Source of the DNA: a bacterium
GTDB taxonomy: Bacteria; Armatimonadota; Zipacnadia; Zipacnadales; UBA11051
Assembly: GCA_030604405.1 (NCBI GenBank)
Contig: JAUVVY010000001.1
Span: forward strand, 220,899 to 284,898
Direction: 5' to 3'
Length of the DNA: 64,000 nucleotides
The notes under the pieces were generated by a model that was given only the letters and a program-made list of their open reading frames with translations, searched no databases and was not told where the DNA came from. The position numbers and the translations under genes are program-made. Numbering within the stretch: position 1 is the first letter of the stretch; each line of letters begins with the position of its first letter. Shown here piece by piece: positions 9,126 through 15,432 of the stretch.

Positions 9126-9626
9126 ATGAAAAGATCTACGGCTGAAAGGCGAAGCAGCCCACGGCTGCGGCGGCTGTGGGCTGATTATATGGCCCTGAAC
9201 GAACTGGTCAAGCTGAGCGATCTTATCGAGATCGCTCCCGGTGGCGACCCGGCGGACCGCTACCGGGTGCTTTATCGCTGCCGGAGTCTGGTAATCGTAA
9301 CAGGCCAAGATGCCCCGGAGGTTTCAGAGCGGCACATCTGTGATATCTATCTGCACCGCGACTACCCGCAGCGGCCGCCGTACTTGATCTGGCGCACCTC
9401 CATCTTCCATCCCAACATCATGCCGCCCGAACGCGGCGGGGCGGTATGCATCGGCGGCTGGAGCCCCAGTGAGAGCCTGCCCAACCTTGTCTTGCGAGTC
9501 GGGGAAATGATACAGTATAGAAACTTTGACCTCGATGATGTGCTCAACGAGGAAGCCGTGAAGTGGGCCAAGTATCATCAGGACCAGTTTCCGATTGACG
9601 ACAGGCCACTCGCGCCTGGTCACTAA
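9126..9626 (+). CDS. Ubiquitin-conjugating enzyme (E2/UBC)-fold protein, copy A
   Basis: IYLHRDYPQRPPYLIWRTSIFHPNIMPPERGGAVCIGGWSPSESLPNLVLRVGEMIQYRNFDLDDVLNEEAVKWA: E2 hallmarks YPxxPP, HPN, candidate catalytic Cys, Trp, LN-EA. Confidence 0.88.
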   Translation: MKRSTAERRSSPRLRRLWADYMALNELVKLSDLIEIAPGGDPADRYRVLYRCRSLVIVTGQDAPEVSERHICDIYLHRDYPQRPPYLIWRTSIFHPNIMPPERGGAVCIGGWSPSESLPNLVLRVGEMIQYRNFDLDDVLNEEAVKWAKYHQDQFPIDDRPLAPGH

Positions 9627-9650
9627 TAAGAACCCGTGGAGGCGATAGTC

Positions 9651-10664
9651 ATGTCCCGACCACACTGGCTGCTGGGCGTTGTCTGCTGTGCGACATTGCT
9701 GTTGGGGGCGGCGATGTGCAGCGCTGATTTCAGTCAGGCCTTCAAGCAGATTGACCCCGCTGTCGTCACCATCACCGCCGGGGAGAAGTCCGGCTCCGGT
9801 TTCATCGTTTCTGCTGACGGCCACGTCGTCACCAACCGCCACGTGGTGGAGGAGGACGGGGACGTACAGATCGTGGTCAAGCTGCAAAACGACGAGGAGG
9901 TTGAGGCAGCCATCGCCCACAGTTCTATCGAGCGCGACCTGTGTGTGCTGAAGATCGAGCGCGCCAATCTGCCGGTGGTGCAGTTCGCCTCCTCCGACAA
10001 GCTTGAATCAGGCCAGGAGATTGCGGCGATCGGCGCTCCGCTGGGCCTGGAGCATTCCGTGACCCGGGGCGTCATATCAGCGCTGGCCCGCGAGATCGAG
10101 GGCAAGACCTATATCCAGCTAGACGCCGCGCTGAATGAAGGCAACTCCGGCGGCCCGGTTATCAACGAGGACGCCCAGGTAATCGGTATGGCGGTGATGG
10201 TGGCCGAGGAGGCGGAGAACGTCGGCTTCGCCATCCCCAGCGTCGCGGTCATGCAGTTTCTGCAGGCCAATGGGCTGAATTTCAACGTTGCACTGGGGGA
10301 GGCTCCCGCTCCGCCATCAGCACCGGTGGAGCCTGAAATCGAGGCTGCAGAAGGCGAGGCGGAGGAGCCCGCCCCGGAACCGACGCCTGGGGAGGTTGCG
10401 CCTCGGCCGGAGGCTGCCGGTGCGGGAACGGGCCAACCGCAGATGGGGGCTTCGTGGTTGGGCCTGGTGATCCTTATTAGCTTCGTAGTAGCCCTGCTGA
10501 CCGCCCTGGTAGTGAGCCTGATACTCGCACGGCGGACGCCGACCCCGGCTGCGCAAGTCGCGGCCGGCGGGCCTACAGGGCCCGCTACGCCGGCAGCGCC
10601 ACCGCCACCGGCTCCCGAAGAACCGGAAGACGATCTTAGCGACATAGACATAGATCTGCACTAA
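9651..10664 (+). CDS. Trypsin-like (HtrA/DegP-type) serine protease domain, signal peptide, C-terminal TM and acidic tail
   Basis: Triad VVTNRHVV / ERDLCVLKI / NEGNSGGPV; TM WLGLVILISFVVALLTALVVSLILA; tail EEPEDDLSDIDIDLH. GGAGG upstream of ATG 9651. Confidence 0.88.
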   Translation: MSRPHWLLGVVCCATLLLGAAMCSADFSQAFKQIDPAVVTITAGEKSGSGFIVSADGHVVTNRHVVEEDGDVQIVVKLQNDEEVEAAIAHSSIERDLCVLKIERANLPVVQFASSDKLESGQEIAAIGAPLGLEHSVTRGVISALAREIEGKTYIQLDAALNEGNSGGPVINEDAQVIGMAVMVAEEAENVGFAIPSVAVMQFLQANGLNFNVALGEAPAPPSAPVEPEIEAAEGEAEEPAPEPTPGEVAPRPEAAGAGTGQPQMGASWLGLVILISFVVALLTALVVSLILARRTPTPAAQVAAGGPTGPATPAAPPPPAPEEPEDDLSDIDIDLH

Positions 10665-10676
10665 GGAGGCTTTGCA

Positions 10677-10946
10677 GTGGGTAAAGTAAAAGTCACAATC
10701 ACGGATACAACCGGCAGCAAATCTCAGGAGGCTTCTCTGCCCGATGACGCACCGGTGCGCCGCATCATCGCCAAGCTCGTCCAGATGATGAGCCTGCCCA
10801 CCACGGGACCAGACGGCCAGCCGATGAGCTACAAGTTTCATCACAAGGCCTCGGGGACCCAGCTTGCTGACGAGCAGACCCTCGCTGACGGCAAGGTCCA
10901 GGACGGCGACGTGCTGCGCTTGCAGCCTGAAATCACGGCGGGTTAG
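10677..10946 (+). CDS. Ubiquitin-like protein, YukD-like beta-grasp
   Basis: 89 aa: VKVTITDTTGSKSQEASLPDDAPVRRIIAKLVQMMSLP...YKFHHKASGTQLADEQTLADGKVQDGDVLRLQPEITAG; beta-grasp pattern, located between protease and E1. GTG start with AAGGAGG. Confidence 0.8.
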   Translation: MGKVKVTITDTTGSKSQEASLPDDAPVRRIIAKLVQMMSLPTTGPDGQPMSYKFHHKASGTQLADEQTLADGKVQDGDVLRLQPEITAG

Positions 10947-13970: not shown

Positions 13971-13973
13971 GCG

Positions 13974-14513
13974 ATGAGTAGTGCCAGATTGCGCAGGCTA
14001 TACGCCGATTACCAGACCGTGCGGGATGAATTCGCGGGCCATCCGCTGATAGATGTGACGGCGCTGGCCGGCGACCCGCCTGAGGTCTATGAGGTCGTCT
14101 ATCGCATCAAGGGCCTGGAGCTTGACGAACGCACCGGCCGGCCCCGGGAGCGCAACCACCACAAAGCCAAGATCTACCTGACCCGGGCCTATCCGCGTGA
14201 GAAGCCGAAGTGCGACCTGGAGACGCCGATTTTTCACCCCAACTTCGGCTCCTATATATGCATCGGCGACCACTGGGCCGCCGGCGAGACGCTCGTGGAC
14301 GTAATCATCCAGATCGGGGAGATGATCCAGTACCAGAGCTACAATCCCAAAAGCCCGCTGAACGCCGTCGCCGCGCAGTGGGCCCAGCAGAATAAGCACT
14401 TGTTTCCGATTGACGACCGCGACCTCTACCAGCCCGAGGTTGACATAGACCTCCTGGGCGAGGAACAAGGCGGCGGAGAAGAGGACAACGACCTGGGTAT
14501 CGAGCTGCTATAG
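13974..14513 (+). CDS. Ubiquitin-conjugating enzyme (E2/UBC)-fold protein, copy B, acidic C-terminal tail
   Basis: IYLTRAYPREKPKCDLETPIFHPNFGSYICIGDHWAAGETLVDVIIQIGEMIQYQSYNPKSPLNAVAAQWAQQNKHLFPIDDRDL; HPN and candidate Cys; paralogous to 9126-9626. Confidence 0.86.
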   Translation: MSSARLRRLYADYQTVRDEFAGHPLIDVTALAGDPPEVYEVVYRIKGLELDERTGRPRERNHHKAKIYLTRAYPREKPKCDLETPIFHPNFGSYICIGDHWAAGETLVDVIIQIGEMIQYQSYNPKSPLNAVAAQWAQQNKHLFPIDDRDLYQPEVDIDLLGEEQGGGEEDNDLGIELL

Positions 14514-14613
14514 CCGGTCCGCGCAGCCTGCACCGATACTTCGGAGTCCATGCCGGCAGATAGCAAGTCTATTTCATTGCGCGACCGCTCGCCGTGCCAG
14601 TTCATCTACAGCT

Positions 14614-15432
14614 ATGCGCTGCCCTTTCTGCAAGGACAATATCAGGATACAGGGAAGGTTCTGCCCGCGATGCGGCGAGCAGATATTCGGCCTGCCTGTT
14701 AGCCGGCCCGGTCGCCAGCCCGGCGCGCCAGGCTCTACTCCACCCGACGCGGCGCCGCCCTCGCCCGGACTCCCACGGCCGGTTACTCCACCCACTCAGT
14801 CGGGTCCCGCAGCGCCGCCGGACACAGTTTTCCTGGATCTGGATTTCGGAGCCCAAGAGCCTGCGACAGCCCCTGGTGGCGGTGCTGCCGGCGTACAAGT
14901 GGCTGACGACGAGTACGTAGGCAAGATCTGCCCATATTGCCGCTTCCCGATTAAGTCCGCCGAGGAGATCGTCGTCTGCCCGCAGTGCGAGGTGCCACAC
15001 CACCTCGACTGCTGGCGGGAAAACGAGGGCTGCACCACCTACGGTTGCACCGGCGGTACGCCTGCCGCCCAGCCGCTAACGCGCGGCGGCCCGCTGCCAT
15101 CACAAACCGCTTCGCGTCACGGGCCCCAGTCTCCGCCTTTGACCCCGGACGCACGGCGCCGGGTGGAGGCCACCTTCGCCGAGATGCAGGTGCGCGAACT
15201 CAATGCCCGAGCCACCAACGCCCTCGTGCTGTCGGTGCTGGGCATCCTGTGCTTTTTGCCGGCAATGATCGGCTTCTTCATGGCTATCGCGGTGCTGAGT
15301 AAAGTCGCCCAGAATGCCGCATTTGCCAATCATCCCGCCAAAGGCCGTGCCATCGCCGCAATAGTCATCGGCGTATTCTGGCTCTTCGTATGGGGCTCCG
15401 TCATGCTGTCAGGCCTCGGCGGTATGGGCTAG
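14614..15432 (+). CDS. Zinc-ribbon + prokaryotic RING-like finger + C-terminal two-TM (DUF4190-like) protein; candidate E3
   Basis: N-terminal CPFC..CPRCG; CPYCRFPIKSAEEIVVCPQCEVPHHLDCWRENEGCTTYGC (RING/treble-clef spacing); C-terminal NALVLSVLGILCFLPAMIGFFMAIAVLSK...AIAAIVIGVFWLFVW. Confidence 0.82.
   Translation: MRCPFCKDNIRIQGRFCPRCGEQIFGLPVSRPGRQPGAPGSTPPDAAPPSPGLPRPVTPPTQSGPAAPPDTVFLDLDFGAQEPATAPGGGAAGVQVADDEYVGKICPYCRFPIKSAEEIVVCPQCEVPHHLDCWRENEGCTTYGCTGGTPAAQPLTRGGPLPSQTASRHGPQSPPLTPDARRRVEATFAEMQVRELNARATNALVLSVLGILCFLPAMIGFFMAIAVLSKVAQNAAFANHPAKGRAIAAIVIGVFWLFVWGSVMLSGLGGMG

Follow-up and report, generated by a model that had tools for sequence, protein, structure and literature searches.

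Operons that encode a ubiquitin-like protein (Ubl) together with the enzymes of its conjugation have been predicted or described in several prokaryotic settings. Bacterial operons with a YukD-like Ubl, an activating enzyme (E1), a conjugating enzyme (E2), a JAB peptidase and a RING protein were reportedly predicted in 2011 by Burroughs, Iyer and Aravind (Mol BioSyst 7:2261; cited in PMC7159879). The locus analysed here is a putative Ubl conjugation operon in a 64,000-nucleotide stretch of DNA (the window; positions 220,899 to 284,898 of contig JAUVVY010000001.1, assembly GCA_030604405.1) from a metagenome-assembled genome of the Armatimonadota ('Zipacnadia'). It reportedly shares with that prediction the component classes, a Prok-RING_1 protein with transmembrane (TM) segments and a YukD-like Ubl expected to be conjugated. 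To our knowledge, that work did not mention a tail motif common to the parts, a charge swap, a LysM-JAMM topology or vertical descent. The operon kind thus has a reported precedent, and the shared tails are what is new here. An earlier note on this DNA had set the system apart from the described defence-associated ones. This stands in so far as PADLOC and NCBIfam assign it to none of them and its single-copy E1 follows taxonomy, and it is qualified by the reported prediction of 2011.

For the Bil and Bub systems (Hor 2024, Chambers 2024, Ye/Gong 2025), passages of PMC12687455 and PMC13373217 describe a Ubl, an E1, an E2 and a JAMM peptidase in one operon, as here; going by those passages, the window system differs in its RING protein, its two E2s, its TM-tethered JAMM protein and protease, and its vertical inheritance. 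Cyclic oligonucleotide-based antiphage signalling systems (CBASS) share the E1, E2 and JAB enzymology in Cap2/Cap3, whereas their E1-E2 is one fusion acting on a CD-NTase and the window operon has neither fusion nor CD-NTase. System-specific models for Bil, Bub and CBASS in PADLOC and NCBIfam were not matched; what was found was generic or weak similarity of E1-E2, JAB and BilD type (BilD at 31 bits). The ubiquitin operon of Caldiarchaeum subterraneum (PMC5654768, PMC6043591) likewise keeps ubiquitin, E1, E2, a small RING protein and an Rpn11-like JAMM peptidase together. Its CsUb and CsRpn11 are among the nearest solved structures to the Ubl and JAMM protein of the window, whereas the operon itself is archaeal and soluble, and lacks TM, protease and LysM parts. 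As far as we know, shared tails have not been reported for it. FtsH-ternary conflict systems with a Ubl tri-ligase (PMC7159879) also combine JAB, E1, prokaryotic RING, E2 and Ubl. In these, an EAD1 adaptor is shared by Ubl and effector, whereas short linear tails would link the parts of the window system, and their vWA-MoxR-FtsH core is absent from the window operon.

On balance, we favour the view that the locus encodes a complete membrane-associated system of Ubl conjugation and deconjugation, whose parts are joined by tails resembling SUMO-interacting motifs (SIMs) on the system's own Ubl. It draws on the observed gene set, folds, active-site residues, conservation, tail motif and charge covariation. 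All system genes lie at 9126-15432 of the window, in one direction and in the following order, at the coordinates already given by the earlier note:

9126..9626, plus strand: E2a, ubiquitin-conjugating enzyme (Pfam UQ_con) with HPN and catalytic Cys C108 (9447-9449), without tail motif.
9636..10664, plus strand: protease with signal peptide, trypsin-like domain (Trypsin_2), TM segment (residues 278-296) and predicted cytosolic tail.
10677..10946, plus strand: YukD-like Ubl (Pfam YukD), ending ...PEITAG, with invariant last Gly (10941-10943).
10958..12184, plus strand: E1 with ThiF adenylation domain (Pfam ThiF, 2.6e-52), candidate catalytic C204 (11567-11569) and C-terminal extension.
12344..12839, plus strand: HicB/HicA toxin-antitoxin pair (Pfam HicB_lk_antitox, HicA_toxin), a passenger.
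12906..13970, plus strand: JAMM/MPN+ peptidase (JAB, Prok-JAB, LysM) with motif HSHPDFGIFLSNYD (13260-13301), TM segment (13554-13610) and LysM (13782-13922).
13974..14513, plus strand: E2b (Pfam UQ_con) with HPN, catalytic Cys C96 (14259-14261) and disordered C-terminal tail.
14614..15432, plus strand: Zn-ribbon/linker/RING/TM protein (Prok-RING_1, 1.6e-12, at 14914-15048) with two TM segments (15223-15279, 15337-15393).

The full gene set, its order and its common direction, as claimed earlier, were borne out by open reading frame positions and by Pfam matches above curated cut-offs (UQ_con for both E2s, Trypsin_2, YukD, ThiF, HicB_lk_antitox, HicA_toxin, JAB, LysM and Prok-RING_1), which also answer the profile searches for UBC, ThiF, JAB, YukD and Prok-RING that had been proposed. 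Short gaps were found as described, of about 10 nt along E2a-protease-Ubl-E1 and of 3 nt between the JAMM protein and E2b. The HicB start was corrected to 12344, and for the JAMM protein the ATG at 12906 is the most likely start, not 12852. One ThiF-family locus and one YukD locus are present in the genome, and both lie in this operon. The pairing of two E2s, the LysM-bearing JAMM protein with TM segment and the TM RING protein were likewise confirmed. The reading as a membrane-tethered Ubl conjugation system is supported by all enzyme classes having intact catalytic residues and by predicted TM segments in three components (protease, JAMM and RING proteins). Directly past the operon, two tandem and very similar 266-aa amidohydrolase genes lie on the minus strand (15534-17176), the first of which matches Amidohydro_2.

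Non-homologous components of the operon share a disordered tail of alternating acidic and hydrophobic residues, which is present on nearly every part and which in orthologues stands at otherwise unalignable places. In the window, the motif takes the following forms, given with its frequency in orthologous tails and the number expected from shuffled tails:

10641..10661, plus strand: protease C-terminal tail motif DIDIDLH (end SDIDIDLH); 22/24 protease tails, 1.6 expected.
11009..11035, plus strand: E1 N-terminal tail motif PIDVDLHED; 20/38 E1 N-tails, 2.8 expected.
12942..12962, plus strand: JAMM N-terminal tail motif PQIDLHE, a shortened form, with longer forms in orthologues; 36/81 JAMM tails, 7.2 expected.
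14436..14453, plus strand: E2b tail motif 1, EVDIDL; 28/29 E2 C-tails, 4.4 expected.
14490..14510, plus strand: E2b C-terminal tail motif 2, DLGIELL (end NDLGIELL); orthologue ends mostly [DE]-[ILVM]-x-I-x-L-x.
14827..14850, plus strand: RING-linker motif VFLDLDFG, ahead of the RING; 12/29 RING linkers, 1.4 expected.

All five tail classes hold the motif well above shuffles, and the alternating hydrophobic/acidic peptide shared across the cascade components is SIM-like. Its C-terminal form was found in 19 of 22 protease orthologues and 15 of 32 E2s. Of the genes labelled as belonging to the system, 34 of 220 end in it, against none of 748 other genes of the same loci (Fisher 1.6e-23), and the remaining 878 genes that were called in 1.09 Mb of the window genome all lack it. 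Within the protease tail, D336, I339 and L341 are conserved at 0.91, close to the catalytic triad (H69/D101/S171, 0.96), and between residues 201 and 336 conservation stays below 0.9 throughout. A limited literature search found no report of such shared tails. By analogy, the shared tail probably grips the Ubl tag as SUMO-binding motifs do in human cells.

Related loci show further forms. In Solirubrobacteraceae (L036, 8507-9676 and 14715-16364), the system includes a membrane protein with an FHA domain as well as a zinc-ribbon protein with the tail motif DTGDFEVVLRPRRAP. Distant Armatimonadota systems (L171-L175) have E2s that end in short acidic tails with Trp (LEWVDE, VWIDEEV, LWMDQ) and Ubls that end in HG or VAA, not AG (among the distant f18/f25 Ubls, some have a different end), which is an apparent variant of tail and tag.

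SUMO binds SIMs at its beta2/alpha1 groove. The likeness to the window system lies in the short hydrophobic/acidic peptides and the proposed binding at Ubl beta2/alpha1, and the difference in that the window Ubl is not SUMO by sequence. A bearing on the binding site comes from Bacteroidota systems (Portibacter and relatives), where the tails are basic. Such tails form the C-terminal ends of E2s (KKIVIQKKNK or RISIKKK), of an nSTAND1 NTPase (KKIVIKKK) and of FHA membrane proteins (QIKIRKK), and the N-tail of the Portibacter E1 holds KLKIEN. The nSTAND1 NTPase of one Portibacter locus (L040) has several basic tail motifs. The Ubl beta2/alpha1 region of Bacteroidota is acidic (GDELEVEL, GKEIKEELLAAE), versus SKEQKASL and VRRIIAKLV in Armatimonadota. 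We know of no SUMO counterpart of such charge-reversed tails. In a comparison of seven clades, the charge of Ubl beta2+alpha1 was inversely ranked to that of the E2 tail, with rho -1.0 for 14-residue tails and rho -0.86 to -0.99 when tail length was varied from 8 to 30 residues and a further Actinobacterial member was included. A sliding scan over the Ubl from end to end peaked at alpha1 (residues 28-41, rho -0.91 to -0.97), followed by beta2 (10-23, rho about -0.75), and gave no negative correlation with tail charge at beta3 or beta5. The beta3 (Ile44-type) face was considered as tail site as well, and charge gave it no support (rho about 0). The covariation points to Ubl beta2/alpha1 as the putative site at which the tails bind.

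A stronger form of this proposal is that a bacterial Ubl has a working SUMO-type SIM groove and that the whole cascade is assembled by one tail code, charge-reversed together with the groove between phyla; it would include E1, E2, the E3-like RING protein, the JAMM protein and the membrane protease, and in Bacteroidota also the nSTAND NTPase and FHA membrane proteins. We put this forward tentatively, at slightly under even chances.

Several points weigh against these proposals or limit the figures behind them. The motif pattern was defined after the motif had been seen, and the figures given are enrichments, not blind tests. In its strict form the pattern misses the window's own E1, JAMM and RING tails, which were recognised by eye and, in orthologues, with a looser pattern. 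E2a is without a tail. The seven clades are few, were chosen after the fact and are not fully independent, and tails can be delimited in several ways. Among the N-tails of E1, a clear charge trend is limited to the contrast of Armatimonadota (-5.6) with Bacteroidota (+2.7). As background for basic tails, 77 unlabelled flanking genes were used, of which 11 matched the pattern; six are neighbours resembling further members and five look spurious. The YukD of B. subtilis has been reported as not conjugated (stated in PMC1779556).

The conjugation system might be real while its tails bind another hub (such as the E1 or RING protein or an unlinked adaptor) or signal degradation or localisation, with the charge match at Ubl beta2/alpha1 as a by-product of clade-wide charge drift. 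The charge of the Ubl as a whole follows that of the tails too (rho -0.86), so that the charge effect is partly global, and only the seven clades speak to the question. However, the signal is local, being strongest at alpha1 and beta2 and missing at beta3 and beta5, and tails occur on proteins of at least five unrelated kinds (protease, E1, E2b, JAMM and RING proteins). Since the parts without motif are the Ubl and E2a, the Ubl is the natural hub, and we regard this first alternative as rather unlikely.

A second explanation is a role in phage defence or another biological conflict, comparable to that of Bil, Bub or FtsH-ternary/nSTAND systems, in which the protease would be the effector; the distribution of the locus bears on it. 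Gene-neighbourhood comparison across related genomes, as had been suggested, showed that the gene set recurs across the order, HicBA excepted, so the doubt that it might not be conserved falls away. The order protease-Ubl-E1-JAMM-E2b-RING and the co-occurrence of YukD-like Ubl, E1, E2, JAB and Prok-RING are repeated in relatives, family f3 having extra JAMM and RING copies, and E2a orthologues were found in genomes of the same family (f1) and in families f45/f21. Across the phylum, 47 of 292 genomes have the E1, which is single-copy in 28 of 41 relatives within the order. The E1 tree follows taxonomy, with f1, f2 and f6 monophyletic with full support and f3 with weak support. In this order, the locus looks like a resident and vertically inherited system.

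Elsewhere the occurrence is patchy, in 13/151 genomes of the Portibacter order and 4/151 of the Solirubrobacteraceae order; cultured hosts are Portibacter lacus and P. marinus, and an E2b homologue is present in Anoxynatronum sibiricum. The patchiness in Bacteroidota would fit a conflict system, as would the nSTAND1 NTPase and (VWA-)FHA membrane proteins carried there, several with a tail of the same kind, the placing of Ubl systems among conflict systems in PMC7159879 and the toxin-antitoxin pair inserted in the window operon. One copy per genome and a tree that follows taxonomy speak against it in this order. Furthermore, PADLOC gave no hit for six neighbouring genes, no E2b homologue was found among phage records, and no close E1 relative was found on plasmids, where the best E1 had 33% identity. 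A conflict role is thus judged unlikely. In the Portibacter locus, a single stretch (L040, 7465-17014) encodes a PAAR protein, the nSTAND1 NTPase, E1, Ubl, E2, a TM-JAMM protein and a VWA-FHA membrane protein. HicB/HicA, which the earlier note had listed among the operon genes, is present but was rejected as a component, since, of the loci examined, those of the window genome and G001 alone have it between E1 and the JAMM gene. In another locus (L043, 15528-16794), HicA/HicB stands between protease and Ubl, unlike the E1-JAMM site in the window.

The individual enzymes bear on two further readings. AlphaFold2 gave the Ubl a ubiquitin fold (pLDDT, the predicted local distance difference test score, 91.4), with beta1 at 3-9, beta2 at 16-22, alpha1 at 27-37, beta3 at 49-56 and beta5 at 79-86, and Foldseek agreed; a beta-grasp fold with an exposed C-terminal Gly is what characterises a ubiquitin-like modifier. 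The last Gly is invariant among 24 sequences. Because certain orthologues run on past AG (e.g. AGRWL, AGRAIG), it is suggested that the JAMM protein trims Ubl precursors. E1 keeps GxGxxG, C204 is invariant in 64/64 aligned E1s, and C185, C188, C273 and H276 are probable Zn ligands; its C-terminal end (KTLAELGLPPYDIITG) resembles a ubiquitin-fold domain, judged by eye only. HPN and Cys are kept in both E2s when E2a is aligned with E2b. The E2b model has a UBC fold, with residues 161-179 disordered (pLDDT <50) and Foldseek in agreement, which, with the UQ_con matches of both E2s, speaks against the earlier reservation that they might lack this fold. E2b is structurally nearest to RAD6/UBE2A types, and the E2 profile to eukaryotic E2s. 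From their conserved catalytic residues, the enzymes look active.

A sulphur-carrier or cofactor pathway (MoaD/ThiS-MoeB/ThiF type) in place of protein conjugation could be argued from E1 being the only ThiF-family protein found in the genome, with no separate MoeB/ThiF found, and from its matches to MoeB/ThiF models, which lie below their cut-offs. However, the two E2s with intact HPN and Cys, the RING protein and the JAMM protein have no place in sulphur transfer. The solved structures nearest to E1 by sequence are human UBA7 and other eukaryotic E1s, and the Ubl profile matches ubiquitin and NEDD8, which makes such a pathway very improbable. That the Ubl belongs to type VII secretion (YukD/EsaB), with the enzymes as mere neighbours, was rejected as scarcely credible despite the Pfam call of YukD and weak EccD similarity, as the YukD locus is single, the operon has no EssC/FtsK-type gene and no WXG100 protein was found in the genome.

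For the membrane parts, TM segments come from a Kyte-Doolittle scan, from which sidedness was inferred. The protease had been called an HtrA-type membrane protease; signal peptide, TM segment and matches to HtrA-family models agree with this, but the models match the protease domain only, and no PDZ domain was found by Pfam scan. The JAMM motif HSHP-x6-S-x2-D, read from the sequence, is intact, and the nearest solved structures are RPN11, CSN5 and archaeal CsRpn11. A search for a solved relative of the RING protein found none, and Prok-RING_1 is its only family match. In one relative (L160, 10360-11262), the RING protein consists of an MshEN domain, a zinc ribbon, Prok-RING_1 and CD225 (interferon-induced transmembrane protein family). 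The protease would have its catalytic domain outside, one TM segment and its tail inside, the JAMM protein its JAMM domain inside, one TM segment and LysM outside, and the RING protein Zn-ribbon and RING inside with two TM segments. This would place all tails, JAMM and RING inside, and protease domain and LysM outside. A link to a bacterial proteasome was also considered and rejected, the only proteasome-family match being HslV.

From the protein families we infer the catalytic steps of the proposed membrane-associated system. E1 would adenylate the YukD-like Ubl at its C-terminal Gly and carry it on C204, from where the two E2s (HPN and Cys) would receive it, with the Zn-ribbon/RING/TM protein as putative E3 ligase at the inner membrane face. 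The JAMM protein, anchored by one TM segment with LysM outside, would cut Ubl precursors after AG and strip Ubl from substrates. Membrane complexes modified with Ubl would probably recruit or regulate the trypsin-like protease, which would lie outside and have a TM segment and a cytosolic tail. The disordered tails may bind Ubl non-covalently at the beta2/alpha1 groove, as SIMs bind SUMO, so that Ubl would be both the tag and the hub gathering enzymes and membrane partners. At the cell envelope, this vertically inherited system seems likely to serve quality control or regulation.

PMC12687455 states that no prokaryotic system was known with a SIM-binding groove. If the proposal is true, SIM-type Ubl recognition, listed there as unseen, existed in bacteria, and short tails would reveal how a whole cascade is wired. 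New system members are also predicted by the tail code, and the Bacteroidota nSTAND NTPase and FHA proteins were picked out in this way. As the charge swap occurs in nature, the binding model lends itself to direct testing. A eukaryote-like conjugation system that is inherited vertically and acts at the cell envelope would extend the known roles of bacterial Ubls beyond phage defence.

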